Assembly (NCBI GenBank): GCA_025355505.1
Contig: JANXZM010000017.1
Span: 1 to 64,000 of the forward strand
From: Acidobacteriaceae bacterium
Lineage (GTDB): Bacteria > Acidobacteriota > Terriglobia > Terriglobales > Acidobacteriaceae
Length of the DNA stretch: 64,000 nucleotides
Direction of reading: 5' to 3'
The notes beneath the pieces are model-generated. The model saw only the letters and a list, made by a program, of their open reading frames with translations. It was not told the origin of the DNA and ran no database searches. Positions 32,891 through 56,409 of the stretch are shown here, piece after piece. The first letter of the stretch is position 1, and each line of letters starts with the position of its first letter. The position numbers and the translations under genes are program-made.

Positions 32891-33868
32891 ATGTTCACAC
32901 CCCATACTCTGGGTATTGCACTGTTCATGATGATTACGAGCGCCATTTGCTGGGGCTCATGGGCGAACACCTACAAGGGCGTCAAGAATTATCGCTTCGA
33001 GTTGTTTTACTGGGACTACGCCGTCGGTATCTTTTTGGTGTCGTTGATCCTCGCGTTTACCATGGGAAGCACCGGCAATGACGCTACCAGTTTCTTGAAC
33101 AACGTGCGGTCGGCGGATACCAATAACATCGTCTCCGTCATGGTCGGAGGCGCCATCTTCAATTTGGCGAATCTGCTGTTGGTGGCGGCGATTGATATGG
33201 CCGGACTCGCCATCGCATTCCCGGTTGCCATCGGAATCGCGCTCGTCGTCGGCGTGATTTCGAGCTATGCCATCCAGCCCAAGGGAAATGCAGCGCTGCT
33301 CGCCGGGGGCGTTCTGTGCGCCCTCATCGCCGTCGTTCTCGACGGAAAAGCCTATGGCAGTCTGGCAATCGCCGGTCGCAAGGTTTCGAAGAAGAGCATC
33401 GTCGTCTGCGTGGTCTCTGGTGTTCTGATGGGGCTCTGGGCTCCTTTTGTGACGCGAGCGATGACCAACGGCAACCCACTCGGTCCATACAGCATCGCCG
33501 TTTTTCTTACCCTCGGTGCGCTGCTCTCCTGTTCAATCTGGAACGTTTATTTCATGAAGCGGCCGCTGGTCGGTGAGCCCGTAAGTTTCGCGGGTTATTT
33601 CAGCGGACCCATGTCCGGCCACGTCCTCGGACTGCTTGGCGGATTCATCTGGGGCATCGGCATGGTTTTCAATTTGGTCGCTGCCAGCTTCACCGGCGTA
33701 GCGATTTCCTACGCCATCGGGCAATCCGCGCCCATGGTCGCCGCGCTCTGGGGCGTTCTTGCCTGGAAGGAATTTGAAGGCGCACCCGGCAAAGCCAAGA
33801 TTTACCTGGCCCTGATGTTTGTCTTCTACGGCATCGGGATTCTCCTGGTGGCGCGGGCAAATGGCTGA
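32891..33868 (+). CDS. GRP-family (RbsU/GlcU-like) sugar transporter
   Basis: A 325-residue, ten-helix DMT-superfamily protein. It starts TLGIALFMMITSAICWGSWAN, then YRFELFYWDYAVGIF, and has WGIGMVFNLVAASFTGVAISYAIGQSAPMVAALWG in the second half, a match to the glucose/ribose porter type rather than EamA exporters. It lies 42 bases after an exported nucleoside hydrolase with AAGGAGAAGCG before its ATG. A ribose import role fits: the hydrolase frees ribose in the periplasm and ribokinase is encoded at 49103. Confidence 0.8.
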   Translation: MFTPHTLGIALFMMITSAICWGSWANTYKGVKNYRFELFYWDYAVGIFLVSLILAFTMGSTGNDATSFLNNVRSADTNNIVSVMVGGAIFNLANLLLVAAIDMAGLAIAFPVAIGIALVVGVISSYAIQPKGNAALLAGGVLCALIAVVLDGKAYGSLAIAGRKVSKKSIVVCVVSGVLMGLWAPFVTRAMTNGNPLGPYSIAVFLTLGALLSCSIWNVYFMKRPLVGEPVSFAGYFSGPMSGHVLGLLGGFIWGIGMVFNLVAASFTGVAISYAIGQSAPMVAALWGVLAWKEFEGAPGKAKIYLALMFVFYGIGILLVARANG

Positions 33869-38442: not shown

Positions 38443-39546
38443 ATGCTGATTCGCTGCACGCGGCAACTCGCGCTAAAGTGTCTGCTCGCTCTTTTGCTCG
38501 CCAACGCCGCCTCGGCCCAGAAAATCAAAGTCATCGTGGATCAGGACGCCCGTGGGCCCGGCACCAGCGACCAGCAGGCGCTGCTGGTTTTCCTGCAGTC
38601 GGAGAAGTTTGACGTGCTTGGCATCACCACCGTCAGCGGCGATCAGTGGGTGAAAGAAGAGACGCAGCACACGCTCCGCATGTTAGAGATAGCCGGGCGC
38701 ACCGACGTTCCCGTCATCGAGGGCGCCGAGTTTCCGCTGCTTAACAGCAAAGAAGAGACCGAGCGCTGGGAAGCCATCTACGGCCAGTTCGAATACAAGG
38801 GATGCTGGACCGAACACTTCCAGGCGAAGCGCTCTACCATCTACGACGAGCCCTACCATGCGCCCGAGGTTGTGCCTCCCATGAAGGAAGGCGAGCCGCA
38901 CATTCACGCGCAGCCCGGCACCGCTGCCGAGTTCATCGTGCAGATGGTGCACAAGTATCCCGGCGAAGTCGTGCTGTGGGCGGGCGGCCCGCTGACGAAC
39001 TATGCGCTGGCACTGAAGCTTGATCCATCGGTTGCGACGCTCGCGAAAGAGTTCGTCATGATGGGCGGAGGACTCTACGCCGACAAGGGCGGCATCGATC
39101 CCGGAGCCATCGAGGCCCGTCGCGAATTCAACTGGTGGTTTGATCCGGAAGCGACTCGCATCGTCCTGCGCGCGCCCTGGAAGAAAGTGACCATCACTCC
39201 CATCGATATCTCAGTCAAAACGCGGTTTACAAGCGAGATGAAAGCCACCATCACCAAGGCCGGCACTCCCGTGAGCGAGTATCTGGAGAAGTATTCGTTG
39301 CCCGGCTATATGTGGGATGAAATCGCCGGTGCCGCGCTCATCGATCCCTCCATCATCACGGGCCAGAAGCAGCTCTACATGGATATCGACGTCGATCACG
39401 GCGCCAGCTACGGCAAGACAATCTTCTGGAACTCGACCGCGAAGGTTCCACCTTACTTGCGCCTGGCGAATGTGCAGTTCGACATCGATGCCGAGAAGTT
39501 CTACAAGATTTACATAGACCTGATGAAGCGCCCGGCCCGAAAATAG
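38443..39546 (+). CDS. Exported nucleoside-hydrolase-family protein, divergent subfamily (IUNH 2)
   Basis: A 367-residue member of the nucleoside hydrolase fold with a Sec signal (LALKCLLALLLANAASA). The first motif is changed: VDQDARGPGTSDQQALL at residues 32-48 in place of D-T-D-P-G-x-D-D-A. Asp33, Asp35 and Asp43 remain, but three residues are inserted and one Asp of the D-D pair is lost. The ribose-site Asn is replaced (VSGDQW), REFNWWFDPEATRIV keeps the Glu and Asn of the family, and the C-terminal H-D is W-D (YMWDEIAGAALIDPS, Asp about 292). Three more genes here share these changes. Hydrolase activity is probable but untested; substrate unknown. Confidence 0.8.
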   Translation: MLIRCTRQLALKCLLALLLANAASAQKIKVIVDQDARGPGTSDQQALLVFLQSEKFDVLGITTVSGDQWVKEETQHTLRMLEIAGRTDVPVIEGAEFPLLNSKEETERWEAIYGQFEYKGCWTEHFQAKRSTIYDEPYHAPEVVPPMKEGEPHIHAQPGTAAEFIVQMVHKYPGEVVLWAGGPLTNYALALKLDPSVATLAKEFVMMGGGLYADKGGIDPGAIEARREFNWWFDPEATRIVLRAPWKKVTITPIDISVKTRFTSEMKATITKAGTPVSEYLEKYSLPGYMWDEIAGAALIDPSIITGQKQLYMDIDVDHGASYGKTIFWNSTAKVPPYLRLANVQFDIDAEKFYKIYIDLMKRPARK

Positions 39547-39577
39547 TGGAGCGGACGGGCGTCCCCGCCCGTCCACT
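39546..39577. repeat. Hairpin related to family A repeat
   Basis: GGACGGGCG (39553-39561) and CGCCCGTCC (39566-39574) form a perfect nine-base-pair stem between two hydrolase genes. The flanks GTGGAG and CCAC echo the ends of the family A units at 7303 and 9597. It could act as a transcript stabiliser or terminator. Confidence 0.65.
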
Positions 39578-39634
39578 GCTTGACTTGGCTGTTAAAATCG
39601 AAATCAGTGAGGCCAGAAACCAGGAGATTCCCTA

Positions 39635-40741
39635 GTGAAACCCAGTGCCATTCGTGGTTTGAACCACTTCAAACGCAATTCCATCTTTCCGCTGTTCGTC
39701 GTCCTGCTGGCGACCTGCTTCGCCTCAGCGCAGCCGCGGCGTAAAGTGATCATCAATCAGGATTGCTCCGGTCCCGGAGGCAGCAACCTGCAGACCCTGC
39801 TGGTGATGATCCAGTCGCCGCAGGTCGAGGTGCTTGGGATCACGGTGGTCAGCGGAGACCAGTGGCGCGACGAAGAGGTAGCGCACACGCTGCGTCTGCT
39901 CGAAATTATTGGACGCACCGACATTCCCGTAGTGCCGGGCGCAGCGTTCCCGCTGGTCCGAAGCCACGAGGAAGCGCAACATTGGCAGGAGCGCTACGGC
40001 AAAGTGGCCTACGCCGGCGCGTGGGATGATCGCTGGTGGCACGAGCCCTTCGTTATTCCCAGGCTTCCGGAAGGGCAGCCGACCACCAAAGCCGCGGATG
40101 AAGATGCTGCCCACTTTCTGATTCGAATGGTCCACAAGTATCCTCATAAGGTCACGATCTACGAGGGCGGCCCCATGACCAACCTGGCGCTCGCCATTTC
40201 AATCGATCCGCAATTTCCCGGACTGGCCGAGGAGTTAGTCTTCATGGGGGGAAGCATCGGGCCCCAAACCGACAACGCCGAATTCATCAACAACCCGCGT
40301 CACGAATTCAACTTCTGGTTTGATCCCGACGCTGCGTACGTGGTGTTACGCGCGCCGTGGAAAAAGATCGTTTGCACGCCCACGGACATCTCAGTGAAGA
40401 CGAGCCTGACGCCCGCCATGATCCAGCAGATCGACAAGGCTGGAACTCCGCTGGCACACTACGTGGCCCGCTTCTTCCAGGAGTTTCCAGGCTCCGATAT
40501 TATGTGGGACGAACTGGCAGCGGCGGCGTGGATCGATCCGTCCATCATCACGAAGAAAGAAACGCGTTACATGAGCGTCGATCTGGATCGCGGAGCCGGA
40601 TACGGCAACACGCTGACTTGGTCGGAGAAAGACAAACCAGCACGGACGGTGCAGCCGGTAGAGATCCAGGTTGACTTGGATAAAGAAAAGTTTTATGGGA
40701 TGTTCGTGAGACTGATGAGCGCCGCGACACCCGCCCGCTGA
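39635..40741 (+). CDS. Exported nucleoside-hydrolase-family protein, divergent subfamily (IUNH 3)
   Basis: A 368-residue paralogue. It starts at a GTG with CAGGAG eight bases upstream and has a signal peptide (FPLFVVLLATCFASA). The metal-site region is the most altered of the set: INQDCSGPGGSNLQTLL, with Asn41 for the first Asp and Ser50-Asn51 where others keep an Asp, so only Asp43 remains. HEFNFWFDPDAAYVVL and IMWDELAAAAWIDPS are retained. Loss of two metal ligands suggests weak or absent Ca2+ binding; it may be a binding protein or act by another mechanism. Confidence 0.8.
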   Translation: MKPSAIRGLNHFKRNSIFPLFVVLLATCFASAQPRRKVIINQDCSGPGGSNLQTLLVMIQSPQVEVLGITVVSGDQWRDEEVAHTLRLLEIIGRTDIPVVPGAAFPLVRSHEEAQHWQERYGKVAYAGAWDDRWWHEPFVIPRLPEGQPTTKAADEDAAHFLIRMVHKYPHKVTIYEGGPMTNLALAISIDPQFPGLAEELVFMGGSIGPQTDNAEFINNPRHEFNFWFDPDAAYVVLRAPWKKIVCTPTDISVKTSLTPAMIQQIDKAGTPLAHYVARFFQEFPGSDIMWDELAAAAWIDPSIITKKETRYMSVDLDRGAGYGNTLTWSEKDKPARTVQPVEIQVDLDKEKFYGMFVRLMSAATPAR

Positions 40742-40753
40742 CGGGGTAAAAGT

Positions 40754-42358
40754 TCAAGGCTGGGGCGACGAGGCGGAATTCCGGCTACGAAGCGAGATTA
40801 CAAACTGCTGAATCTCGCGCCGCTGATGCTCGGCATTATCCTTTGTTTTCATGGATAAAAGTTGGTGACGTTGAAGTTCTTCTTGAGCTTTGGTTTTGTC
40901 GCCGGTTCGCCGATAAGCCTGCGCCAATCGATAGTGCGTTTCTTCGAGCTCGGGACTGACTTCGATCGCTTTTTGATACGCGGAAATTGCACGCGAAAAA
41001 TCCGCGCGCTGCGAGTGGAGAATCCCCAGTTGCAGATATGCGGCACCAAGCTTCGGATCAAGATGCACCGCCTTCTGCAGCAGCGACTCGACCTGCGCTG
41101 AACGCTCGTTGTTACTTTCCACGTCACGGTTGACCGAACCCGCCGATTGTTTCCAAAGACTGACGGCGTAATAGTAGTTCGCGAGCGCGTTGTCCGGTTG
41201 CAGTTGCGCGAATCGCTTCAATCTCTCCACCGATGCTTGCGATGGAGGGGTCTCCACACTTTGCATTCTCCCCAGAAAAAGGTACGGAGTTGGATTGTCA
41301 GGAGCGAGATCGGACGCGTCCACGAGAGACTGTGCCGCTTGATCGTAGGAACCACGAGCGTACAAAGATACGCCGAGCGCGACCTGCATCCGCACGGACT
41401 TTGGAAACAGGCGATTGCCTTTTGTGAAAACCTCGGTGGCCGGTTCCAGCGCGCGATGAATCAGAAGTTCGGTTCCCCAATCGAACAGGTTCGGTTCGCT
41501 GGGGTCAAGTTGCGCCGCACGCTGGTACTCCCGAACCGCCTCCAGTGGCTTGCCTAACTTCTCCTCGAGCTCGCCCAGCAGGTGATGAGATTCGGGATCT
41601 TTGGGGTTGAGCAGGGAAGCCCGCTCCAGGAAAGGAGCTGCTTCAGCAGTCTTTTCATTATCGGCGAGAAATTCTCCAAGCCGCCGATTCGCCGCAAAGT
41701 TATCCGGATCGAGTGCCACCGTTGCGCGTAAAGATCTTTCTGTCGCGGGAGATGTCGCCGCCCTGGAACTAGCAGCCGAGTCATTACTCAATGAGACCGT
41801 CGCCTTGGCGAGCGCTTCGGTGGTTCGCAGCACTGTATCGGAACCGTGTCCACCGGAATTTGTGGCTTGGGTCACGCCCGCCACCGTGAACTGAGGTTCA
41901 TCAAAAAACTTGGGTGCTTGTGCGGGCTTTTCCGCCGCGTGCGTTCGTGGAAGAGCGCCAGGCAGTTCAGAAGCTTTTGTGGACGCGAGAAAGAGATCAA
42001 TCTTTGTCGTTTGTTTTCGCGCGAGGTTCACGGGACCGACGGTTGCCCGCTCGTATCCGCTCATCTCTGCGCGGAGAGTGTACGCGCCCGCTTGAAGCGC
42101 CGCAAAGCGATACCGTCCTTCGGAATCTGTGTGCGTGCTCTGGGCAGGTGTAGCGAGGGCCTGCATTCCAGTTCCGAGGTTCAAGAAGACGGTCGCGTTC
42201 GCCACCGGCCTGCGAGTGGAATCGCGCACATACCCATGCACCGTGGCGGCGCCCACCGATTCTTGAGACTGTGCTCGATCCGGAGCAAGAGTGGCTATTG
42301 CCGCTACGACGCAGAGGGCGACATAAAGTGCAGTTTGGCTGAAGTGGCCAGCGGTCAC
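40754..42358 (-). CDS. Exported carboxypeptidase-regulatory-like and TPR protein
   Basis: A 534-residue protein with a signal peptide (LYVALCVVAAIATLA), an N-terminal carboxypeptidase-regulatory-like domain (GAATVHGYVRDSTRRPVANA to VNLARKQTTKIDLFL, residues about 36-116), a low-complexity linker, and TPR repeats from about residue 205 (VALDPDNFAANRRLGEFLAD; KDPESHHLLGELEEKLGKP) to the end. It is convergent with IUNH 3 and diverges from IUNH 4. The beta-sandwich is the same kind as in the TonB receptor, so it may assist substrate handling in the periplasm. Confidence 0.82.
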   Translation of the reverse strand: MTAGHFSQTALYVALCVVAAIATLAPDRAQSQESVGAATVHGYVRDSTRRPVANATVFLNLGTGMQALATPAQSTHTDSEGRYRFAALQAGAYTLRAEMSGYERATVGPVNLARKQTTKIDLFLASTKASELPGALPRTHAAEKPAQAPKFFDEPQFTVAGVTQATNSGGHGSDTVLRTTEALAKATVSLSNDSAASSRAATSPATERSLRATVALDPDNFAANRRLGEFLADNEKTAEAAPFLERASLLNPKDPESHHLLGELEEKLGKPLEAVREYQRAAQLDPSEPNLFDWGTELLIHRALEPATEVFTKGNRLFPKSVRMQVALGVSLYARGSYDQAAQSLVDASDLAPDNPTPYLFLGRMQSVETPPSQASVERLKRFAQLQPDNALANYYYAVSLWKQSAGSVNRDVESNNERSAQVESLLQKAVHLDPKLGAAYLQLGILHSQRADFSRAISAYQKAIEVSPELEETHYRLAQAYRRTGDKTKAQEELQRHQLLSMKTKDNAEHQRREIQQFVISLRSRNSASSPQP

Positions 42359-42551
42359 GCAGATCGACTCCTAGAGAAACACAGAAAGCGGCAGCTCCCT
42401 AAATTATACGGAATCGGCCGTGATCATTGCCTGGCATTCTTTTCCCGGGCACCCTCGTCTGCAATTCATGCGTTGCCATCAATAAATTGGTAGAGACTCA
42501 TGAATAGGCTTTACAATGGCACGCTTTCCCTGCGGCGAACATGGTAGATCG

Positions 42552-42620
42552 TTTGATGCACAAAAGCTGTACGATCTCTATGTCACGTTGATGAAGCCGC
42601 CCGCTAGCCAAGCAGGGCAA
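42552..42620 (+). pseudogene. Remnant C-terminus of a lost nucleoside hydrolase copy
   Basis: The frame reads FDAQKLYDLYVTLMKPPASQ, which matches the last residues of the divergent hydrolases (FDIDAEKFYKIYIDLMKRPA in IUNH 2; VDLDTDRFYKMFVDLLRAPT in IUNH 5). No body of a gene precedes it. It is directly upstream of IUNH 4 and runs into that gene's ribosome-binding site. This is the trace of a deleted seventh copy. Confidence 0.65.
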
Positions 42621-42639
42621 GATTCAAGGAGAAGCGCAC

Positions 42640-43857
42640 GTGGATTCAAAAAAAGAAATTTTTCGCTTTACCCGGCGCCAATTTGTAACGTCGTCCGCGG
42701 CCGTTTTGGCCACCAGCGGTTTGGCCCACCAGGCCAACGCCATCACCTCAGTCGCTGGAAAACGTTCAGAGCAGGGCCAGTCCAACGGAAGGTCCGACGG
42801 CGGGATTGGTCGCGGTCCCTTCCGCGTCATCATTGACACCGACCCTGGAGTGGACGACGCTCTGGCGCTCTTGCTGGCCATGCGTTCGCCGGAGCTGAAG
42901 ATTGAAGCCATCACTCCGGTTGCAGGGAACGTGCCGCTGGACCTGACGTTGCCGAACGCCTTGCGCATGGTTGAAATCGCGGGCCGCACCGATATTCCCG
43001 TGGCCGCGGGCGCCAGGGCTCCTCTAATGCGTCGCCTGGTGACGGCAACCTACGCGCATGGCGAGAACGGATTGGGCGGCGCCGTGTTTCCTGAGCCAAC
43101 AACCAAGCCGGTTGCCACGCCTGCCGCAGAGATGATTCTCCAGATCGTTCGCAAGTATCCCGGCGAGGTGACGCTGATCGCCATTGGACCCCTGACGAAC
43201 ATTGCAACCGCCCTCAATTCCGATCCGCAACTCGCCAGCATGGTTCGAGGATTGGTCATGATGGGCGGCTCGCTTTCGGGAGGAAACATCACGCCCGCGG
43301 CCGAGTTTAATGTTTACGTGGATCCGGAGGCTGCGCGGATTGTCTTTCAATCTGGAATTCCAGTGACCATGGTTGGCCTCGACGTCACGCGCAGGACGTC
43401 TCTTACCGACGAGCACGTGCGCACGCTTGAAGCCGCCCAGAACCCGGTGAGCCAGGCCGCGGCCAAGATTGGACGCAACGCGATCAACCACAACCGCGAG
43501 CGCGGATATTTGGTCGGGCCGAACATGCACGACTCGCTCGCCGTTGCCGGGTTTCTCGATCCGTCGATTCTGAAATTTCAGGATTATTACGTCGATGTCG
43601 AGACGACAGGCGAACTCACGGCCGGCGAAACCCTGGGCTACACCCCCGTTGGCGGCGATTTACGGCGCCGCCCCGGGATGGAGAAGGATGCGGCGGCCAC
43701 GAACATGCCGATTCGCGGGTCGGCCCCGACTCTAGCCGGCACAAAAACGTCTCCCGTGCTGCGCGATAAGTTTGTTCCTAACACGAAGGTTGCGGTGGAG
43801 GTAGATTCTTCGAAGTTTTTCGATCTTCTCATTGGGCGATTGTCAGGGAGTAAGTAA
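42640..43857 (+). CDS. Tat-exported nucleoside hydrolase, canonical type (IUNH 4)
   Basis: A 405-residue nucleoside hydrolase with a twin-arginine signal: FTRRQFVTSSAAVLATSGL at residues 10-28. The metal site is canonical, DTDPGVDDALALLL at 66-79; further motifs are PVAGNVPLDLTL (ribose-site Asn), GPLTNIATAL, AEFNVYVDPEAARIV and MHDSLAVAGFLDPS, which keeps both His and Asp. The start is a GTG at 42640 with AAGGAGAAG upstream. Compared with ordinary enzymes (about 310-320 residues) it has an insertion between 330 and 385 (GDLRRRPGMEKDAAATN...). It is the best candidate for a fully active enzyme in this set. Tat export implies folding before export. Confidence 0.9.
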   Translation: MDSKKEIFRFTRRQFVTSSAAVLATSGLAHQANAITSVAGKRSEQGQSNGRSDGGIGRGPFRVIIDTDPGVDDALALLLAMRSPELKIEAITPVAGNVPLDLTLPNALRMVEIAGRTDIPVAAGARAPLMRRLVTATYAHGENGLGGAVFPEPTTKPVATPAAEMILQIVRKYPGEVTLIAIGPLTNIATALNSDPQLASMVRGLVMMGGSLSGGNITPAAEFNVYVDPEAARIVFQSGIPVTMVGLDVTRRTSLTDEHVRTLEAAQNPVSQAAAKIGRNAINHNRERGYLVGPNMHDSLAVAGFLDPSILKFQDYYVDVETTGELTAGETLGYTPVGGDLRRRPGMEKDAAATNMPIRGSAPTLAGTKTSPVLRDKFVPNTKVAVEVDSSKFFDLLIGRLSGSK

Positions 43858-43899
43858 CATCGTTAAGAGCGAGAAGTTCAACAAGTGAGAGGTGCATGA

Positions 43900-45003
43900 A
43901 TGAAGCTGGACCGATTTCGGAGTTTTATCACGGTGGTAACTTTCATTCTAATGACATGTCTTGTGTCCCAAAGCCAAGACAAGCGCAAGATCGTTATCGA
44001 TCAGGACGCGGCCGGACCCGCCGGCACCGACCAGCAAGCGATACTCTTGCTCATCCAGTCTCCGCAAGCGGAAGTCTTAGGCATCACGGTGGTGACGGGC
44101 GATGCCTGGCTTACCGAAGAAGTCGCGCACACTCTGCGGATGCTGGAACTCATCGGACGAACCGACATTCCCGTGGTACGCGGAGCCGAGTATCCGTTGG
44201 TCAGAACAAAAGAAGAGACGGAGCATTGGGAACAACGCTATGGCTCGGTTCAGTGGCTTGGCGCCTGGACTCCGCGCGTGTATCACGCGCCCCGCGAACT
44301 GGGACCGATGCCGGAAGGGAAGCCAACCACCAAGGCCTCCGACGAAGATGCCGCTCACTTTCTGGTGCGCATAGTTCGTAAGTATCCGCACGAAGTCACG
44401 ATCTATGAGGGCGGACCCATGACAAATCTGGCTCTCGCGATCTCCATCGACCCGGAATTTGCGAGTCTAGCCAAAGAGTTGGTGTTCATGGGCGCAAGCC
44501 TGAATCCGTGGACCGATGATCCCGAGTTTGCAAACATGCCGCGCCATGAATTCAACATCTGGTTCGATCCGGAAGCGGCTCACATTGTGCTGCGGGCTCC
44601 CTGGAAGAAGATTGTCTGCACCCCGGTAGATATTTCCGTGAAGACAAGGATGACCAATGAACTGGTCGACAAGGTTAAGGCCGGTAACTCGCCAGCAGCG
44701 CAATACATCGGCAAGTATGCGCAGCTGCGTGGCTCCTATAACTATCTGTGGGACGAGCTTACATCCGCGGCATGGCTTGACCCAGGCCTGATTACAAAGA
44801 AAGAAAACCGATTCATGGACGTGAACCTGGATCGCGGCCCGGGCTACGGAGACACTCTAACCTGGACAGATCGAGATAAGCCCACGCGCGATGTGCAGTC
44901 GGTGGAAATACAAGTCGATTTGGATACCGACAGGTTCTATAAGATGTTTGTGGATCTGTTGCGCGCTCCGACGCCGCAGCCGGGCAAAGCCTCGACGCCC
45001 TAG
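43900..45003 (+). CDS. Exported nucleoside-hydrolase-family protein, divergent subfamily (IUNH 5)
   Basis: A 367-residue paralogue with a Sec signal (FITVVTFILMTCLVSQS). The rebuilt metal-site motif is VIDQDAAGPAGTDQQAILL, keeping Asp34, Asp36 and Asp44. The rest follows the subfamily: VVTGDAWLTEEVAHTLRM, EGGPMTNLALAIS, HEFNIWFDPEAAHIVLRAP, YLWDELTSAAWLDPG. It is 42 bases downstream of IUNH 4, so the canonical and divergent enzymes are probably co-transcribed. Confidence 0.8.
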   Translation: MKLDRFRSFITVVTFILMTCLVSQSQDKRKIVIDQDAAGPAGTDQQAILLLIQSPQAEVLGITVVTGDAWLTEEVAHTLRMLELIGRTDIPVVRGAEYPLVRTKEETEHWEQRYGSVQWLGAWTPRVYHAPRELGPMPEGKPTTKASDEDAAHFLVRIVRKYPHEVTIYEGGPMTNLALAISIDPEFASLAKELVFMGASLNPWTDDPEFANMPRHEFNIWFDPEAAHIVLRAPWKKIVCTPVDISVKTRMTNELVDKVKAGNSPAAQYIGKYAQLRGSYNYLWDELTSAAWLDPGLITKKENRFMDVNLDRGPGYGDTLTWTDRDKPTRDVQSVEIQVDLDTDRFYKMFVDLLRAPTPQPGKASTP

Positions 45004-45010
45004 CGACGAG

Positions 45011-48940: not shown

Positions 48941-49102
48941 GTCTCCCGGATACCCACGTGTGGCCTGAAATTAACACCCGCCCACACCACCGTCAAGATT
49001 GGCCCGTCACGATTGCGCAGCATTTCATGAAGATCGAATGATCACTATATGTTAGGCTAACGTCCTTTGGCACATCTAAACTCGTTCATCGGAGAGTCTC
49101 CT

Positions 49103-50074
49103 TTGCCCGTACCTCGAATCACAGTCGTCGGCAGCTATGCGACCGGTCTGACCATGAAAGTAAAGCGCCTGCCGAGCACTGGGGAGACGCTTCTGGGAAC
49201 GGGCTATCGCGTGGACTACGGCGGCAAAGGCTCGAACCAAGCCGTGGGCAGCGCCCGGCTCGGAGCGAACGTCCACTTCGTCGCCAGGATTGGGAAAGAT
49301 GCCTTTGGGGAAATGGCGCTAAGACTCTATCGCGACGAAGGCATCGATGTCGCTGACGTAAAACAAACGGCCGAGGCGCCCACCGGAGTGGGTTTCATCA
49401 TGGTGGAAGCGGCGAGCGGCCATAACTGCATCGTTATTGATCCGGGAGCAAATGAGCTTCTCAGCGCTGAGGACATCTCCGACTGCGCCGCCTTCCAATC
49501 GACCTCGGTCGTATTGACGCAGCTCGAGATTCCCGTAGCGACGGCCGAGGCTGCTTTGCGTCTCGGACGCGCGGCTGGCGCCATCACGATTCTCAATCCT
49601 GCGCCGGTCCGCCCTCTTCCCTCGTCCGTTTTGCAGTTGGTGGACGTTCTCACCCCCAATCAGGTTGAAGCCAAAGTACTCACCGGACGAAGTCCAGATG
49701 CGGTGATCGCACCCGAACAACTCGCGCGCGAACTAATTCGCAGTGGCGTAAATCAGGTCGTCATGACCTTGGGCGAAAGGGGAGCGCTGATCGTGACTTC
49801 ATCCTCGTCCACGCATGTTCCCGCGATATCCGTTTCGGCAGTTGACACCACGGGCGCAGGAGATGCCTTCAACGCGGGCCTCGCGACCGCCCTCGCTTCA
49901 GGTGCTAGTCTGGAAGCTGCCGTGCAGTTTGCCGTGGTCACGGGCGGTCTCGCGGTTACAAGAGAAGGTGTGATTCCTTCCTTGCCCAGCCAAAACGAAA
50001 TCCGTCAGTTCTATCAGGAGCGTGGAACGACGCTTCCAGATTGGTTTGCAGACGGCCCGGCAGGTAAGGCATGA
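49103..50074 (+). CDS. rbsK: Ribokinase (PfkB family)
   Basis: A 323-residue sugar kinase that makes ribose 5-phosphate. PfkB signatures are GGKGSNQAVGSARLGA near residues 38-53 and DTTGAGDAFNAGLA near 250, where the Asp of G-A-G-D is the catalytic base; LTQLEIP and VLTPNQVEAKVL are typical ribokinase segments. I chose a TTG start at 49103 because GGAGAG lies six bases before it; the frame could begin at a TTG at 49067. It is in line with the RhaT-like transporter downstream. In context it would trap ribose released by the periplasmic hydrolases. Confidence 0.92.
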   Translation: MPVPRITVVGSYATGLTMKVKRLPSTGETLLGTGYRVDYGGKGSNQAVGSARLGANVHFVARIGKDAFGEMALRLYRDEGIDVADVKQTAEAPTGVGFIMVEAASGHNCIVIDPGANELLSAEDISDCAAFQSTSVVLTQLEIPVATAEAALRLGRAAGAITILNPAPVRPLPSSVLQLVDVLTPNQVEAKVLTGRSPDAVIAPEQLARELIRSGVNQVVMTLGERGALIVTSSSSTHVPAISVSAVDTTGAGDAFNAGLATALASGASLEAAVQFAVVTGGLAVTREGVIPSLPSQNEIRQFYQERGTTLPDWFADGPAGKA

Positions 50075-50141
50075 AGTCTGCAGGTGTGAATTCGATCACG
50101 GGTGATTTTATCAAGGTCGCGCGGGCTCAGACCCCTCTACA

Positions 50142-51164
50142 ATGACGCTTATGCCTTTGCTCCTTGGTTTTTTTCTTGTGCTGCTGGCCGGCTTGCTGCA
50201 GGGAACCTTCATTCTTCCCATGACGCTGGTTCGCAAGTGGTCGTGGGAGCACACTTGGGCAACTTTCTCGCTGCTCGGCATGGTCGTCTTTAATTGGATG
50301 ATCACCCTGGTTTTAGTCCCCAACATTTTTGCGGTTTACATTGCGTCGCCACCGCGGGATCTCGCGATTCTCGCGCTGTTTGGACTGGGCTGGGGAGTGG
50401 GTGCGGTTTTGTTCGGCCTCGGCATGGCGAGGCTGGGGATGGCTCTCGGCTATCCCATCATCATGGGCCTCATCGCGAGCCTGGGCGGGTTGATCCCGCT
50501 GCTCGTGTTCTTCCCGCAGACCCTCTTCACGCCGAGGGGTCTGGTGCTGCTCGCCGGAACAGCCGTCGTGATCGTGGGCATTGTTGCTTGCTCCGTGGCC
50601 GGTTCCCGCAGAACGCCGTCCACAACTAAGTCAAACGCAGCGCCCTCCAATGCCCTGACCGCCGGATTGGTGATTGCTATCGTTGCCGGTATTCTTTCCT
50701 GTTTGCCGAACGTTGGCATGGCTTTCGCCAAGAACGTAACCGGGGTTGCGGAAACACTGGGCATCTCCCATGCGTCGTCAGGAAACACAGTCTGGGCGCT
50801 TCTGTTCACGCTGGGGAGCGTTGCCAACCTTGCCTATTGCCTGTACCTGATGATTAGCAAGAAAACGCTTCGCCAATACTGGAACACCGAGACACCGCGC
50901 AACTTGAGCTTGAGCGCCCTGATGGCGCTGATGTGGATTGGCAGCTTTTATCTCTATGGAGCCGGCGCCGCACGGCTGGGACGTTGGGGTCTGGTGGCAG
51001 GTTGGCCGCTGTTCATCTCGATTTCGATTGTCATGGGCAACATCTGGGGATTATGGAGGGGCGAGTGGCAAGGTGCACCCGCTTCCGCTCGCCGGCTATT
51101 GAATCTTGGTCTGGTGATTCTGATCGTAGCGGTGATCGTGGTTGCGCTCAGCAATTCTTTTTAG
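50142..51164 (+). CDS. RhaT-like sugar transporter
   Basis: A 340-residue, ten-helix protein of the L-rhamnose/proton symporter type: FFLVLLAGLLQGTFILPMTL, KWSWEHTWATFSLLGMVVFN, FGLGWGVGAVLFGLGMARLG and SLSALMALMWIGSFYLYGAG. A TACAAT box (50138-50143) overlaps the ATG at 50142, so translation may begin at the ATG at 50151. It is 67 bases after ribokinase in the same direction. Ribose is the natural guess for the substrate, with rhamnose or another pentose possible. Confidence 0.85.
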   Translation: MTLMPLLLGFFLVLLAGLLQGTFILPMTLVRKWSWEHTWATFSLLGMVVFNWMITLVLVPNIFAVYIASPPRDLAILALFGLGWGVGAVLFGLGMARLGMALGYPIIMGLIASLGGLIPLLVFFPQTLFTPRGLVLLAGTAVVIVGIVACSVAGSRRTPSTTKSNAAPSNALTAGLVIAIVAGILSCLPNVGMAFAKNVTGVAETLGISHASSGNTVWALLFTLGSVANLAYCLYLMISKKTLRQYWNTETPRNLSLSALMALMWIGSFYLYGAGAARLGRWGLVAGWPLFISISIVMGNIWGLWRGEWQGAPASARRLLNLGLVILIVAVIVVALSNSF

Positions 51165-51191
51165 TGAAAGCGCCGACCAAGGAGGAATTGC

Positions 51192-52523
51192 ATGTCAGAG
51201 TCTTCTCCGTTTCTGCTTACCCCGCAGCCTCGCGCCCGCTGGATGCGACTGGATACCGCGCAACTGCTGAAGCGTTTTTATTTTTGCGAGCGCATGGTTG
51301 TAGTTTGTAGTGCGGCTTGGATCCCCGCGATTGCTCCTCTCGAAATCAAGACCGGCCTTGCTCGCTGCGTCTGGCAGAGCGCGGAAACGGCACATGCCTT
51401 GAGGAACCGAGTGTTCGAACTTCGATTTCCCACCCGCCTGCTTGAAGAAGAAGGAGCCGATCAAGCGCTGATTGAGATCTTCAGCGCCGTGAAGGATTCT
51501 CCCTCGGTTTCGGCATTCCTCATGAGCGTTGGACAGAGCCTGCTGCCCGCGTTGCGCAATTCCTATCAGTCTTATCTAGCGGCGTCCGATTCGATTGCAG
51601 ACGGTCCCACGCACCGCTTTCTTTCACTCGCACTCACGGAAAAACTCGAGCAGATTGCCGCGTTCGAATCCTGGACGCAGTCCGAACTCTCCCGGAATCC
51701 CGAGTCGCGCAGCGGCGCACTGGAGTGGACAAACGCAGTTGCCAGCCGTCTTTTACAGGTAGGAGGAGTAGGAGTGGACTCGTCGCCTGCGGCGGCTGCT
51801 ACCGGGGCTTTGCCAGGCTCGAAGGTATATTCCATTCCCGAGCGGCCCGCCCGTGATTCGCGCTTCTGGCCATGCCGCTTCTACTGGCCAGATGTGGTCG
51901 ATCCCGTTTTCCCTTACGGCGAGGGGATGCAGTTGCAACTGCGCTCGGCGATCAGCCACCTGAATGAAGTTTGGGCGATTGAAGCTGGCGGCCTGATGCT
52001 GAGTTCGTTTGCCGAAGTATTGCCCTGGGAGTGGATTCACGATGCTGCGCGCTGGACTTACGATGAGTCTCGCCACTGCCGCATGGGCTATGAACGTCTC
52101 ATGGCCTGGGGTTTCGATCCGGCGCAGATTCCCCTTGGAACTTACATTTATGACAGCGCTTCCGGAGAAGATCCAATCTATCGGCTGGGCATGCTGTATT
52201 TTTTCGAGACCAAGAACATCCGCCACAAGCTAACCCGTGCGCAGCTGTTTCACGCCTGCGGCGACTCTCTGAGCGAGCACGATATGGATTTCGACTGGGC
52301 CGACGAAACCATTCATGCCGGTTACGGCAAACACTGGCTCAGGGAGTTACTGGCGGTGCGAGGGGAAGATCCCGCTGCTCACGACCAGGTCAGGGAACGA
52401 TGTGGGAAGATGGTGAGTGACTACGTGGCCACGGCAACCGAAGACGAAGTGATCGGCATCAAGAAGATTGCGACCGCGCTGATGACCAAGGCAGCGCAGA
52501 AGTCGTCGAATCATGAGGAGTGA
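51192..52523 (+). CDS. Ferritin-like diiron protein of unknown function
   Basis: A 443-residue protein I cannot name. Three E-x-x-H type motifs are visible: SAETAHALRNRVFELR (about residue 60), RWTYDESRHCRMGYERL (about 290) and DWADETIHAGYGKHW (about 380), with EAGGLMLSSFAEVLPWEWIHD supplying a further Glu. This spacing is that of a ferritin-like four-helix diiron site in the C-terminal half. The N-terminal half may be a degenerate repeat. It follows the RhaT-like gene by 27 bases with AAGGAGGAA before its ATG. An oxidase or oxygenase acting on a nucleoside- or sugar-derived compound is conceivable but not shown. Confidence 0.65.
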   Translation: MSESSPFLLTPQPRARWMRLDTAQLLKRFYFCERMVVVCSAAWIPAIAPLEIKTGLARCVWQSAETAHALRNRVFELRFPTRLLEEEGADQALIEIFSAVKDSPSVSAFLMSVGQSLLPALRNSYQSYLAASDSIADGPTHRFLSLALTEKLEQIAAFESWTQSELSRNPESRSGALEWTNAVASRLLQVGGVGVDSSPAAAATGALPGSKVYSIPERPARDSRFWPCRFYWPDVVDPVFPYGEGMQLQLRSAISHLNEVWAIEAGGLMLSSFAEVLPWEWIHDAARWTYDESRHCRMGYERLMAWGFDPAQIPLGTYIYDSASGEDPIYRLGMLYFFETKNIRHKLTRAQLFHACGDSLSEHDMDFDWADETIHAGYGKHWLRELLAVRGEDPAAHDQVRERCGKMVSDYVATATEDEVIGIKKIATALMTKAAQKSSNHEE

Positions 52524-52641
52524 TCGTCGGGAGCGATCGACGACCGGGCAATAAGCTGAGGTCGCTATAATGATCCGGTCATTATTGATCCGTGCATTAC
52601 TGATCGAATCGTTGCTGCTGACATTGATCTTGACCTTGACG

Positions 52642-53946
52642 ATGAAACTCGGCGCCAGAGCCAACACAACTCGATGCCTTCGGCTGTGGATTCTGTTTGC
52701 ACTGGCCGCGTTGATGCTCGTATCGTTTGGCGGCCAAAATGCTGAATCTCAAGCAAGGCCTGCCGTACGACCAATCGCCTCGGACTCGCCGGATGCTCAC
52801 CTGGGCCGAGCCTACGACGCCCTGAAAGAAGATCGATACGAAGTGGCCGCCGTCGAATTTCGAGCTGCCCTCAAGCTGGATCCCAAGTTGACTCTCAGGG
52901 CGCGCTTTCCTCTGGCGGTCGCGCTATTCGAAATGAAGAAGCCCGACGAAGCGCGGCAGGAGTTTGAAGCCGTCCGCCGTGAAACCGGAGATCATCCCAA
53001 CATCTCGTATTATGTGGGGCGCCTTGATTTGGACGAGCTGCACTTCGAAAGCGCGATCCGGAATTTAAATCAGGCAATCATTAACCAGCCTTTTCCTGAC
53101 ACCGCGTACTATCTCGGTTTCGCATACTTCAAGCAGGGCGATCTGGCGGCCGCTGAAAAGTGGCTGAATGAGGCAACCCAATCGATGCCGCACGACGCCC
53201 GCGTGCAATATCAGCTCAGCCTCGTGTATCGCAAGCAAGGGCGGGAGCAGGAGGCAAAGGAAGCGCTGGCACTTTCGGGAGGACAACGGCAGCGCAATTT
53301 GAGCGAAAGCCAGCTGCGGATCGAATGCGCGCAAAAACTTGACCAAGCTCCCCGCGAGGAAGCGCACGCAGTTTGCGAGCCACTCTATGATCCGAACGAC
53401 GCGGAAAAACTGACAGAGCTCGGCACTATCTACGGCCAGCACGGCGACGTCGAAGCCGCCGTGAAACCATTGCGCCGCGCAGCGGAACTCGCCCCGCAAT
53501 CGCCGCAGATGCAATACAACCTTGCGCTCGCTTACTACCAGCTCCATCAATTTGAAGAGGCGCGCACGCCCCTCGGCAACGCGGTCACGCGCTGGCCCGA
53601 TATATTTCAACTTGCAGCCCTGTATGGTGCGGTCCTGTCAAAGCTCGGGGAGGATCTCCCGGCGTATCAGGCGCTCCAGCGCGCGCACCAACTCAACGCA
53701 CAGGATGGCTCGACCGTCGATCTGCTTTACCTCGCAACGCTCTCGCTCGCCCGCAAGGCTCAGAGCGCCCGCCAATTTTCCGATGCTGTCCGCTATTTTC
53801 ATGAGGCGGCAAAACTAAAATCGCAGGAGCCCGCCCCCCACCGCGGCCTTGCGGACGTCTACAAACTCACCGGTCGCGCGGCGCAGGCAGCTACTGAGCG
53901 AAAAGAAGCTGACCGACTAGCCAGCGCCTTCGATAAAACTCAATAA
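52642..53946 (+). CDS. Exported TPR protein
   Basis: From the ATG at 52642 this is a 434-residue protein with a signal peptide (LWILFALAALMLVSFG) and about ten TPRs: HLGRAYDALKEDRYEVAAVE, KPDEARQEFEAVRR, DTAYYLGFAYFKQGDLAAAE and so on. The frame opens earlier, at 52570, but that ATG overlaps a TATAAT box (52566-52571), and the extra segment is a three-fold 15-base repeat coding for hydrophobic residues (I-R-S-L-L, I-R-A-L-L, I-E-S-L-L). Either start is possible. It precedes the queuosine-salvage gene by 21 bases and is likely co-transcribed. Confidence 0.8.
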   Translation: MKLGARANTTRCLRLWILFALAALMLVSFGGQNAESQARPAVRPIASDSPDAHLGRAYDALKEDRYEVAAVEFRAALKLDPKLTLRARFPLAVALFEMKKPDEARQEFEAVRRETGDHPNISYYVGRLDLDELHFESAIRNLNQAIINQPFPDTAYYLGFAYFKQGDLAAAEKWLNEATQSMPHDARVQYQLSLVYRKQGREQEAKEALALSGGQRQRNLSESQLRIECAQKLDQAPREEAHAVCEPLYDPNDAEKLTELGTIYGQHGDVEAAVKPLRRAAELAPQSPQMQYNLALAYYQLHQFEEARTPLGNAVTRWPDIFQLAALYGAVLSKLGEDLPAYQALQRAHQLNAQDGSTVDLLYLATLSLARKAQSARQFSDAVRYFHEAAKLKSQEPAPHRGLADVYKLTGRAAQAATERKEADRLASAFDKTQ

Positions 53947-53967
53947 GCGAAACTCACAGAGGGGACC

Positions 53968-54984
53968 ATGGGTACAAATCACGACTTGCGTTGGCCGAAA
54001 TTGACAGGCAGTCCGGTGCTCGACAGCGTTCATCCCGTCATTGAGAGCTCGCGCGACGTGCACACCCACGTGGACAAAATCGCCGACGTCGCCCGCTGGA
54101 TGGCATACGAAGAGCTGCCCATGCCCGACTACGCTCTGCCCTTTGGCATCGGTGCCGGCGACGTTCACCAGACCATCGACTTCATCCTCACTACCGCCTG
54201 CATCGACACCGCGTTCACCGATTTTTCCAGCCACATAAAATTTCAGGTGGATTACGCCGGCCACAACTGGTCTGACTCCGACGCGCTGTTCGCTTGTATG
54301 AAGCGGGCCATTGACAAAGGCATCCCCATCCTCGACGGTGTATTTCTCGCTAAGGTTACACGGGCAGAGATGGCAACGCTGTTCGCCGGCAATATCGAGC
54401 TGCCGATGCTCGACGACAAAATGCAGATCCTGCACCAGGTGGGAGCCACGTTGACCGCAAAATATGGCGGGCGGTTCCACAACTTCGTAGAGTCGTGCGG
54501 GCCGCGTTTGTACGACAAAGGCAATGGGCTGATCGATCGCCTGGTAGCTGAATTCCAGCGATTCAACGATGTCAGCGACTACGACGGCCATGCCATCAAA
54601 ATCTACAAGCTGCCGCAACTCGCAATATGGTTTTTGTATACAAGCTTGCAAAAGTCGGAAAAGTTCCAGATTGAAGACATCGACAAGATGACCGCGTTTG
54701 CCGATTACATCGTTCCCGTGGCGCTACGGCTGCTTGGTTTGACGAGCTATTCGAAGGATCTCGAACAGGCCATCAACTCTTATCAGATGATTCCCCGCGA
54801 CAGCCGCCAAGAGGTGGAAATTCGCGCTCATTGCGTCTACGCGCTCGCACTGCTGGCTGAAGAAATTAACAAACTACGCCCGCCCGATCTGCAAATCATC
54901 ATGCCGCAATTAGACGCACGGTTATGGACGCACTACCACACGACGTGGTGGCCTCACCATCTGACCAAGACCATCATGTACTGA
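53968..54984 (+). CDS. Queuosine 5'-phosphate N-glycosylase (Qng1/DUF2419 salvage protein)
   Basis: A 338-residue DUF2419 protein. This family frees the base queuine from queuosine 5'-monophosphate during salvage. Recognisable segments are RAIDKGIPILDGVFLAKVT, MPMLDD-type MQILHQVGATLTAKYGGRF, TAFADYIVPVALRLLGL, and the very conserved DSRQEVEIRAHCVYALALL. No signal peptide is present, so it acts in the cytoplasm. It is surrounded by nucleoside-cleaving genes, which extends the salvage theme to modified nucleosides. QueF for de novo preQ1 synthesis is at 21323, so the organism may combine synthesis and salvage, or use Qng1 to recycle or degrade. Confidence 0.85.
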   Translation: MGTNHDLRWPKLTGSPVLDSVHPVIESSRDVHTHVDKIADVARWMAYEELPMPDYALPFGIGAGDVHQTIDFILTTACIDTAFTDFSSHIKFQVDYAGHNWSDSDALFACMKRAIDKGIPILDGVFLAKVTRAEMATLFAGNIELPMLDDKMQILHQVGATLTAKYGGRFHNFVESCGPRLYDKGNGLIDRLVAEFQRFNDVSDYDGHAIKIYKLPQLAIWFLYTSLQKSEKFQIEDIDKMTAFADYIVPVALRLLGLTSYSKDLEQAINSYQMIPRDSRQEVEIRAHCVYALALLAEEINKLRPPDLQIIMPQLDARLWTHYHTTWWPHHLTKTIMY

Positions 54985-55302
54985 AAATCATTTGTTGTTG
55001 GCGTGCGCGGCAAGGAATTGCTTCACGGCCTGTGGCGTATAGGCCACCGCGCTGAACGGTTTGGAAAAAACGGTTTTAAAGGTGGTCATGCGCTGCTTTC
55101 CGCGGCTGTTGGAAAGAATCAGCGCGATGAGCGGTTTTTTAGTCTGGTGGTTGAAGCTGCTGGTACAAGATCCGGCGTTCTCCTGCCGTTGTTGACAACC
55201 AACACCATTCAATATGTAATCATCCGGTTCTTTCAGCTTCATTCTAATGTTGTTGCGAATCGGCGCTGATCGAAAATCACGTTATTCAGGAGCATTGATC
55301 CC
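54985..55302. other. Intergenic region without a supported gene
   Basis: The 318 bases between the queuosine-salvage gene and IUNH 6 contain a minus-strand frame of 84 codons (54988-55242) ending AVKQFLAAHANNK, without a ribosome-binding site or a family. A CAGGAG site (55289-55294) serves the next gene. I see no clear promoter or hairpin. Confidence 0.4.
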
Positions 55303-56409
55303 GTGAGACGCGCAACCCTCTGCATAGTGGCTGTTGTTGTTCTTGCTTCCGTTTTCGCCAAATCCGATACGCGCCGCAAAGTGATCCTTGATCAGGATGC
55401 GCGCGGGCCTGCCACAACCGACCAGCAGTCCATGCTTCTCGTCCTGCAATCGCCGGAGATCGAAACCCTCGGCATCACCATCGTCAGCGGCGATCAGTGG
55501 CGCGATGAAGAGGTTGCGCATACTCTCCGCATGCTGGAGCTTACCGGACACACGGGAGTCAAGGTTTACCCCGGAGCCGTGTTTCCGTTGATTAACAGCC
55601 GGGAGGAAATCAAGCGTTGGGAAAAATTGTACGGTGTCGTGGGCTACCAGGGCGCGTGGAACGAGCACAAGGTAGCGCCCGCCGCGGGTTCCACTTACAC
55701 CGGCGCGTGGAATTCTGGTGCCTATCGTGGGCCCTTCGAGGTCCCGAACCCGCTGCCGGAAGGCAATCCCTCGTTGAAACCCGAGACCGAAGACGCCGCC
55801 CACTTCATGATCCGAATGGTGCACCAGTATCCTCATGAAGTCACAATCTACGCTGGCGGCCCGCTGACCAATCTCGCGCTAGCCATCAGCCTTGACCCGA
55901 CATTTTCTGAGTTGGCACAGGAACTGGTCGTCATGGGAGGCAGCATCGCGCCCGTAGTGCCTATGGACTGGGCTCAGTCCAACCGCCGCGAATTCAACTT
56001 TTGGTGGGATCCGGAGGCCGTCCACATTGTTTTGCGTGCGCCCTGGAAGAAGATTACCGTCACCACGGTCGATATTTCGGTCAAGACTCGTCTGACGAAA
56101 GCGATGATCGATCAGATCGCCAAAGCCGGAACGCCCGCCGCCGATTACATTGGCAAGTGGGCCGACGAAGAGTTTTTGTGGGACGAATTGGCTGCAGCGG
56201 CATGGATGCACCCCAGCATCATCACGAAGGAAGAGTCGGTTTATATGGACATGGACATCTCCCACGGCGCTGGTTACGGCAACACGCTTGTCTGGCTTCC
56301 GGGAAATCAGCCTGGGCTCGGCGAGCAGATCGTTCATGTGCAAACCGATCTGGACCTTGAACAATTCAACCGGACAGTGATCGACCTGCTGTCTCGGCCG
56401 CCAAAATGA
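55303..56409 (+). CDS. Exported nucleoside-hydrolase-family protein, divergent subfamily (IUNH 6)
   Basis: A 368-residue paralogue beginning at a GTG with CAGGAG upstream and a short signal peptide (LCIVAVVVLASVFA). The metal-site region is ILDQDARGPATTDQQSMLL, keeping Asp30, Asp32 and Asp40. An insertion around residues 120-150 (NEHKVAPAAGSTYTGAWNSG) resembles that in IUNH 2 in place but not in sequence. REFNFWWDPEAVHIVLRAP and LWDELAAAAWMHPS are as in the subfamily. It leads the pyrimidine cluster (cdd, phosphorylase, nupC) in the same direction. Confidence 0.8.
   Translation: MRRATLCIVAVVVLASVFAKSDTRRKVILDQDARGPATTDQQSMLLVLQSPEIETLGITIVSGDQWRDEEVAHTLRMLELTGHTGVKVYPGAVFPLINSREEIKRWEKLYGVVGYQGAWNEHKVAPAAGSTYTGAWNSGAYRGPFEVPNPLPEGNPSLKPETEDAAHFMIRMVHQYPHEVTIYAGGPLTNLALAISLDPTFSELAQELVVMGGSIAPVVPMDWAQSNRREFNFWWDPEAVHIVLRAPWKKITVTTVDISVKTRLTKAMIDQIAKAGTPAADYIGKWADEEFLWDELAAAAWMHPSIITKEESVYMDMDISHGAGYGNTLVWLPGNQPGLGEQIVHVQTDLDLEQFNRTVIDLLSRPPK

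Follow-up and report, generated by a model that had tools for sequence, protein, structure and literature searches.

Nucleoside hydrolases are annotated and defined by the aspartate fingerprint DxDxxxDD, which is described as diagnostic for these enzymes (PMC11241417) and as strictly conserved in the purine-specific ones (PMC10526354). In a 64,000-nucleotide stretch of DNA from an Acidobacteriaceae bacterium (assembly GCA_025355505.1, contig JANXZM010000017.1, positions 1 to 64,000; hereafter the window), six genes matched the nucleoside hydrolase family PF01156. Two of them (IUNH 1 and IUNH 4) carried DTDPGxDDA, whereas the other four (IUNH 2, 3, 5 and 6) lacked the fingerprint. A branch maintained by selection without it raises the question whether the reaction runs on other residues or whether proteins annotated as hydrolases do something else. 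We found that the altered motif marks a true clade and not four decayed copies, and that its genes are under purifying selection comparable to that on the canonical IUNH 4. Two further PF01156 genes were present outside the window in the same genome (4.16 Mb, 119 contigs), namely a canonical-like hydrolase with DTDTASDDA on contig C62 and a fifth copy of the altered type on contig C84 (locus L008).

Altered fingerprint and residue register

The six window genes and the sites discussed here are given below. The curated cut-off of PF01156 is 34.2 bits, the sites were placed by alignment, and export signals at the N-termini were called by eye.

about 31862..32848, + strand: IUNH 1, canonical DTDPGTDDA hydrolase, signal-like stretch upstream
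38443..39546, + strand: IUNH 2, DQD-type nucleoside hydrolase homologue and clade member, signal-like N-terminus, PF01156 189 bits
38539..38577, + strand: altered fingerprint of IUNH 2, DQDARGPGTSDQQ
39635..40741, + strand: IUNH 3, DQD-type (Asp8 and Asp15 replaced by Asn, Asp14 by Ser), PF01156 198 bits
39755..39793, + strand: altered fingerprint of IUNH 3, NQDCSGPGGSNLQ
42640..43857, + strand: IUNH 4, canonical DTDPGVDDA hydrolase, Tat-like RRQF N-terminus, PF01156 324 bits
43900..45003, + strand: IUNH 5, DQD-type hydrolase homologue, signal-like N-terminus, PF01156 204 bits
43999..44037, + strand: altered fingerprint of IUNH 5, DQDAAGPAGTDQQ
44749..44757, + strand: Trp-Asp-Glu of IUNH 5 (positions His241, Asp242 and 243)
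55303..56409, + strand: IUNH 6, DQD-type hydrolase homologue, signal-like N-terminus, PF01156 189 bits
55390..55428, + strand: altered fingerprint of IUNH 6, DQDARGPATTDQQ

From their N-termini we infer that IUNH 2, 3, 5 and 6 are exported. IUNH 4 lies directly upstream of IUNH 5 and gave a weak match to the twin-arginine translocation (Tat) signal family PF10518 (12.3 bits, below cut-off). Against the RihA, RihB, RihC and UriH equivalogs of NCBIfam, IUNH 2, 3, 5 and 6 fell short, with 74-117 bits versus cut-offs of 382-459. The frame of IUNH 1 is open upstream of its signal-like stretch (31802-31930) with no in-frame ATG, GTG or TTG ahead of it; it may start at a rarer codon, or a base may be wrong.

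The DQD-type proteins share the motif [DN][QE]DxxGPxx[ST][DN], followed by SGDQW or TGDAW, EFNxW[FW]DP and [ML]WDE[LI]. The first-pass annotation had described a common D-Q-D start, an Asn-to-Asp change at the ribose site (SGDQW/TGDAW), a C-terminal change of His-Asp to Trp-Asp, a three-residue insertion and a retained Glu/Asn pair in E-F-N-x-W-x-D-P. The alignment bore these out, apart from the start of IUNH 3, which is NQD. The three extra residues include Gly-Pro and lie between Asp10 and position 14, in a numbering which we take to be that of the Crithidia fasciculata enzyme. The alignment runs without gaps between helix 1 and the Gly-Asn39 strand, which places [ST] at Asp14 and [DN] at Asp15. 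Asp14 is lost in all four proteins, while position 15 keeps Asp in IUNH 2, 5 and 6 and is Asn in IUNH 3. For IUNH 3 a loss of two of the three Asp had been claimed; it does depart from the canonical sequence at Asp8 and Asp15, but it departs at Asp14 as well, and Asp10 is kept. The equivalents in IUNH 5 are D36 (Asp10), T43 (Asp14), D44 (Asp15), D68 (Asn39), W284 (His241), D285 (Asp242) and E286 (position 243).

Two residues of HopQ1, a protein of the same fold, were equated by us with Asp14 and Asp15. The work on HopQ1 relates the former to ribose and the latter to calcium (PMC3608555, PMC11685791). Three aspartates are described as metal-binding in nucleoside hydrolases, two within DxDxxxDD and one downstream that is preceded by His, and in molecular dynamics work the third fingerprint Asp belongs to the proton relay of a His (PMC8910321, PMC10526354). 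Since Asp10, Asp/Asn15 and Asp242 still stand at the ligand positions, the first metal shell appears largely kept, and the alignment does not support the earlier description of a rebuilt metal site. As far as the alignment allows, the lost pair is Asp14 (ribose and proton relay) and His241, so that it would be mainly the residues of the ribose/proton relay and of the leaving group, and not the metal ligands, that have changed.

The AlphaFold model of IUNH 5 had a predicted local distance difference test score (pLDDT) of 95.0 and a predicted template modelling score (pTM) of 0.91; the values for IUNH 3 were 93.4 and 0.89. The best PDB match of either model was a nucleoside hydrolase with Z 37.5, and the top matches were 4kpo_A (root-mean-square deviation 2.3 over 298 residues) and 3b9x_B (2.1 over 288). 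The Trypanosoma brucei inosine-guanosine nucleoside hydrolase (IG-NH) 3fz0 scored Z 35.2 and 35.1 with the IUNH 5 and IUNH 3 models, respectively, and the inosine-adenosine-guanosine nucleoside hydrolase (IAG-NH) 3epx of Trypanosoma vivax 34.3 and 34.2; ranks within 1 were treated as ties, and the best group I entries were about 3 above T. vivax. A Foldseek search with the IUNH 5 model likewise matched nucleoside hydrolases. The nucleoside hydrolase fold is predicted to be kept in IUNH 5 and IUNH 3, and these models and the conserved residues agree with the earlier view that the fold and part of the site persist.

Phylogeny, conservation and selection

A search of genome contigs confirmed 240 relatives, and 78 loci were kept; the scan retains its best 80. 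The set of open reading frames taken from loci L009-L086 comprised 127 non-identical sequences of 330-430 amino acids, and the 133-row alignment held 111 DQD-type and 22 canonical rows. All trees were built with the motif columns removed. In a quick tree of 81 rows, from which two truncated rows (L144, L133) were left out, the DQD-type rows formed one side of a single branch with a Shimodaira-Hasegawa-like approximate likelihood ratio test (SH-aLRT) value of 95. A careful tree of 73 rows, with a further eight long-branch rows including T. vivax left out, gave the DQD-type clade a support of 99/93, and 100/100 together with its sister lineages; the motif thus defines a clade within PF01156, as the first reading of the locus had considered. 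IUNH 2, 3, 5 and 6 fell into separate subclades, and their relatives elsewhere mostly keep each subtype's own loop; most IUNH 3 orthologues, for example, keep NxD and SN. Exceptions to the motif within the clade were L128 (genome G149), with a loop one residue shorter, and L112 (G061), with Gly-Ala instead of Gly-Pro and Tyr instead of Trp241.

Invariant in all 111 DQD-type rows were Asp10, Gly-Pro, [ST]14, the Trp two past position 39, Glu166, Asn168, Trp221, Trp235, Trp241, Asp242 and Glu243, and 31 of 329 columns were invariant altogether; this constancy goes beyond chance. Position 15 was Asp in 61 rows and Asn in 50, position 39 was Asp in 98 and Asn in 13, and the position of Asp8 was Asp in 78 and Asn in 33. 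A wider residue table was compiled from 203 distinct proteins after 8 of 211 had been dropped for a gap at a scored site. Asp10 was present in every one of them, and Glu243 was found in 145/145 proteins without Asp14 versus 0/58 with Asp14. By alignment, the 145 proteins all had Asp10 and Asp242, with Asp (78), Asn (66) or Ala (1) at position 15 and Trp (144) or Tyr (1, L112) at position 241.

These counts bear on the idea that the proteins are non-catalytic periplasmic ribose- or nucleoside-binding proteins, in which the hydrolase site serves as a sugar receptor for uptake or sensing. The loss of Asp14 and frequent loss of Asp15 would suit such a role, as would the several paralogues per genome and the outer-membrane receptor gene that is often near. 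Relatives that lack nucleosidase activity are also described: XopQ does not have it but binds ADP-ribose, and for the Sde_0182 domain, which is inactive, a furanose is the presumed ligand (PMC8910321). However, Asp10, Glu166, Asn168, Asp242 and Trp241 did not vary in the 111 rows (Glu166 was changed in four further members), the new acid Glu243 is fixed, the DQD-type gene is the sole PF01156 match in six near-complete genomes, and sugar-transporter-type genes are already present in the window. We consider a receptor role rather improbable.

Two sister lineages were recognized. The first consists of DTDFGxPP[QT]DD proteins from other Acidobacteriota families (L129, L130, L131 and one in G302), and the second of DSD[YF]NT[LM][SG]DDG proteins on Burkholderiales plasmids (L118, L145). 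Both have the longer loop and E[FL]NxW, keep Asp14-Asp15 and Asn39, have Trp or Tyr at position 241 and lack Glu243; the site of the sister-type G302 protein reads Tyr-Asp-Gln. Since the sisters combine the longer loop and Trp/Tyr241 with Asp14, loop growth and loss of His241 likely came first, and Asp14 was lost and Glu243 gained later.

Could the DQD-type genes be decaying duplicates heading for loss? Multiple paralogues exist, the G059 copy consists of pieces with internal stops, single stops occur in the matches of G028, G053, G069 and G077, and a short copy flanked by an insertion sequence was found in Gluconobacter. The ratio of nonsynonymous to synonymous substitution rates (dN/dS) was nevertheless 0.049-0.154 in 14 DQD-type pairs versus 0.058-0.089 in 4 pairs of the canonical IUNH 4, with the wider pairs near synonymous saturation; for IUNH 3 it was 0.06-0.10. 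Orthologues moreover retain the loop of their own subtype. For IUNH 2, 3, 5 and 6 these selection values refute decay, which is hardly credible as an explanation of the motif.

Within the family of the window's genome, 27 of 100 genomes had a match at E < 1e-60 (own genome counted, G059 by its broken pieces). Across the phylum 20 of 297 genomes passed E 1e-40, with 15 classed as DQD-type and 5 as sister-type by loop or score. Among the matches listed, DQD-type members also occurred on at least four alphaproteobacterial plasmids, from Novosphingobium (43% identity), Rhizobium, Devosia and Gluconobacter. The Gluconobacter hydrolase (L144:5641-6444) is short and adjoins an IS5-like element. A hydrolase on an E. 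coli plasmid (L140:310-1293), with a LacI regulator and IS26 as neighbours, carries seven additional residues in its fingerprint loop and keeps the double Asp. Acidobacterial-looking members were found in L071 and L075, from records titled Nevskia soli and Betaproteobacteria, and these bins are probably mislabelled. Viral carriage was rejected, as none of 87 pattern matches in viral contigs was a relative.

Twelve genomes, chosen for carrying a DQD-type gene and so not a random sample, were searched whole for PF01156. In eight of them the DQD-type gene was the only match; six of these eight (G064, G187, G246, G254, G291, G320) are about 99% complete, and all six carry the Ser14-Asn15 loop. Since no other PF01156 gene was found in the six, there is no canonical partner there, and the first-pass suggestion that the proteins are partner subunits of the canonical enzymes was rejected for the Ser14-Asn15 branch. 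For the clade as a whole, a role as partner or regulatory subunit of an adjoining canonical hydrolase has a precedent in the NSH1-NSH2 heterocomplex of Arabidopsis thaliana (PMC8910321). Sufficient flanking sequence was available for 99 DQD-type genes; directly upstream of these, a canonical hydrolase was found 14 times (with one overlap of 19 bases) and another DQD-type gene 11 times, and canonical, DQD-type and ribokinase genes are consecutive in L119. Yet 85 of the 99 had no canonical gene directly upstream by pattern. The Tat-like RRx[FLMVI], a loose pattern, was present in 30/46 canonical versus 17/167 DQD-type proteins, so that many would use different export routes. The subunit explanation is very unlikely overall.

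Gene neighbourhood and proposed reaction

Genes near the window hydrolases that relate to a possible pathway are listed below.

32891..33868, + strand: ureide permease/sugar transport family transporter, PF07168 69.9 bits
34721..38326, + strand: Oar-type beta barrel of the outer membrane, upstream of IUNH 2 and 3, PF25183 656 bits, PF13620
49067..50074, + strand: ribokinase, TIGR02152 308.9 bits against a cut-off of 299.65
61495..62901, - strand: TRZ/ATZ-type amidohydrolase, kin of 5'-deoxyadenosine/methylthioadenosine/S-adenosylhomocysteine deaminases, PF01979, signal-like N-terminus

With 444 bits as its best NCBIfam score, the amidohydrolase stayed below the cut-off of that model (540) and below those of the other models listed. 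The island also contains genes for a RhaT-type transporter, DeoC, a double aldehyde dehydrogenase, DeoA and NupC. The double gene is a single open frame at 27498-29909 with two aldehyde dehydrogenase stretches, and its homologues adjoin DeoC in L048, L062 and L078.

By BLAST, homologues of Oar were found in the flanks of 40 of the 78 loci and of ribokinase in 22; for the 34 loci with full flanks the numbers were 23 and 13. A cruder motif count, to which the BLAST counts are preferred, gave a PfkB motif in 20 and a pattern for an outer-membrane barrel in 22 of 75 loci. All six full-length flanking kinases tested passed TIGR02152 (323-339 bits against 299.65), and the sister-type genes of L129 and L131 also have a ribokinase homologue next to them. 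Three DQD-type members, one sister-type and one canonical hydrolase lie within 19.5 kb of G302 (L165, another family), together with a ureide-permease-type transporter, an Oar-type barrel, ASPIC/UnbV and, beside a member, a deaminase-type amidohydrolase. On the Novosphingobium plasmid, genes for a TonB receptor, an M20 peptidase, the DQD-type hydrolase, a xanthine/uracil permease and an adenosine-deaminase-like protein share one strand. A luciferase-like monooxygenase gene and two more genes converge on this group and were read as RutA, RutD and RutB of the Rut pathway. The Rhizobium and Devosia plasmid members had no such neighbours, just a LysR-type regulator upstream in both.

A Q_salvage gene (PF10343, Qng1-type) lies beside IUNH 6 at 53968-54984, with RhaT-type and DUF455 genes near. 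QueK hydrolases release queuine from queuosine. A role in queuosine salvage, suggested by the neighbouring gene, was rejected, as a Qng1-type gene is near DQD-type members in only 3 of 78 loci (L009, L011, L012). The ureide-permease-type transporter adjoins nucleoside hydrolases in distant Acidobacteriota as well (L129, L131, L165). A Pfam relative next to qng1 has been shown to carry preQ0/preQ1 (PMC11130926); the transporter considered here may carry ribose or a base.

The neighbourhood could also fit hydrolases for another sugar, acting on 2'-deoxyribonucleosides or 2'-modified nucleosides. Within the site, Asp14 and position 39 are on the side of the ribose, presumably towards the 2'-OH, and their changes would relax the strict ribose rule. 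In L048, L062 and L074 one strand carries, in order, DeoC, an aldehyde dehydrogenase, a ribokinase-type PfkB kinase, an outer-membrane (Oar) barrel and an IUNH 3-type gene, and DeoC, DeoA, NupC and aldehyde dehydrogenase are all present in the window. Strict ribose specificity is described as common to all characterised isozymes (PMC8910321), so a change at a ribose contact is suggestive. However, the six flanking kinases score as ribokinases, and DeoC occurs in 4/78 loci versus 22/78 for ribokinase. The kinases also have Asn at a position where deoxyribokinase has Met. A pure deoxyribose route is weakened by these kinases, and we keep it as an unlikely rival.

On residue patterns and gene context, we give about an even chance to the reading that IUNH 2, 3, 5 and 6 are exported, periplasmic ribonucleoside hydrolases, likely purine-preferring, with stacking-based activation of the leaving group and a relocated carboxylate. 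Periplasmic cleavage of ribonucleosides is favoured because ribokinase, the outer-membrane receptor and deaminase-like genes as neighbours point to it. The cation would be held by Asp10, Asp/Asn15, the Thr carbonyl and Asp242, as in the usual site, and Asp10 would activate the water. Stacking of Trp241 on the base, in the style of group II enzymes, would replace the His241-Asp14 proton relay, and Glu243 with, mostly, Asp39 would provide the carboxylates that Asp14 no longer supplies. The freed ribose would then be imported and phosphorylated by the neighbouring ribokinase, and the paralogues may divide the substrates among them. Catalysis, substrate, metal and the role of Glu243 are what we infer in this scheme. 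It would indicate a route of nucleoside scavenging in soil acidobacteria.

Several observations weigh against this ribonucleoside hydrolase reading. The Asp14-less proteins form one clade, and the exchange of Asp14 for Glu243 is therefore a single evolutionary event and not 145. Besides the clade-wide loss of Asp14, Asp15 is lost in nearly half of the members (66 Asn and 1 Ala of 145) and Asp8 in most IUNH 3-type proteins. Glu166 is replaced by Asp or Ala in three alphaproteobacterial plasmid members and by Arg in one of the three G302 members. For the second stacking Trp, which group II enzymes have in the beta3-alpha3 loop, there are only candidates: Trp110, found in 96/111 DQD-type proteins, or the aromatics at 119 or 123 of an enlarged crossover segment, found in 111/111. 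Ribokinase was near in only 13 of the 34 full-flank loci, a rate that stands without a control gene set, and the adenosine-deaminase-like protein of Novosphingobium scored 197.1 bits, below the TIGR01430 cut-off of 216.55. Deoxynucleosides would suit the DeoA, DeoC and aldehyde dehydrogenase neighbours just as well. XopQ and Sde_0182 show in addition that the fold may go without nucleosidase activity (PMC8910321).

More tentatively, the clade may represent a fourth mechanistic group of nucleoside hydrolases. Its members would be active without the His241-Asp14 relay, with a carboxylate at position 243, Trp stacking, a weakly bound or different cation in the Asn15 subtypes and a 2'-OH specificity that is relaxed or changed, and would be the sole hydrolase of the family in some soil acidobacteria. 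The same joint reading, held as possible but not probable, includes 2'-deoxy- or 2'-modified nucleosides as substrates. Natural variants that have the insertion but retain Asp14, that lack Asp14 but retain Asp15, or that lack both residues allow the roles of Asp14, His241 and the cation to be tested.

Comparison with known nucleoside hydrolases

No description of the DQD motif was found in the available text of the open-licence literature on nucleoside hydrolases, a scope outside which most subscription papers lie. The helix start of Sde182-type proteins, which we take to be DDQQS-like, resembles [ST]DQQS; kinship was rejected, as PF07632 (Sde182-type) gave no match at E 1 among the six window hydrolases. 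The HopQ1/XopQ-like proteins share the fold and have a described non-standard aspartate motif, but their DXXXDXDD differs in that it keeps the double Asp, which the DQD-type does not, and it was absent from the DQD-type proteins in the alignments. The XopQ model gave no match at E 1 for IUNH 2, 3, 5 and 6 and weak ones for IUNH 1 and 4. The PDB matches listed for the IUNH 5 and IUNH 3 models contained no XopQ entry, from which we draw no conclusion. For HopQ1 the source text gives no nucleosidase activity as found (PMC3608555), and XopQ has been reported as a 2',3'-cAMP/cGMP phosphodiesterase (PMC11685791).

Group II is defined by a Trp that replaces His before the last metal Asp, stacking is credited with a higher pKa of the purine N7, and the T. 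brucei IG-NH, with a group I fold and two Trp, is described as a group I/II hybrid (PMC8910321). T. vivax IAG-NH (group II, 1hoz) shares with the DQD-type the Trp before the last metal Asp (Trp260-Asp261; 1r4f is its Trp260Ala entry) and an Asp at Asn39, where it reads TDADC; both C-terminal and ribose-site changes noted in the window therefore have a precedent in this enzyme. It keeps Asp14-Asp15, unlike the DQD-type. In the 81-row tree T. vivax IAG-NH was not placed with the DQD-type clade, although its row is a very long branch, and with this reservation the tree speaks against group II ancestry; Trp241 and Asp39 probably arose separately in the DQD-type.

With group I (RihA, RihB, RihC and the C. 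fasciculata inosine-uridine nucleoside hydrolase; PF01156) the DQD-type proteins share the predicted fold and the positions of Asp10, Asp242, the Thr and Glu166/Asn168. They differ from it by the Gly-Pro insertion of three residues, Ser/Thr14, Asp/Asn15, Trp241, Glu243 and the absence of DxDxxxDD. Of these features, the changes of Asn39 to Asp and His241 to Trp are already known from group II purine enzymes, whereas the change of Asp14 to Ser/Thr, the Gly-Pro loop insertion and the Glu right after Asp242 are new compared with known enzymes.

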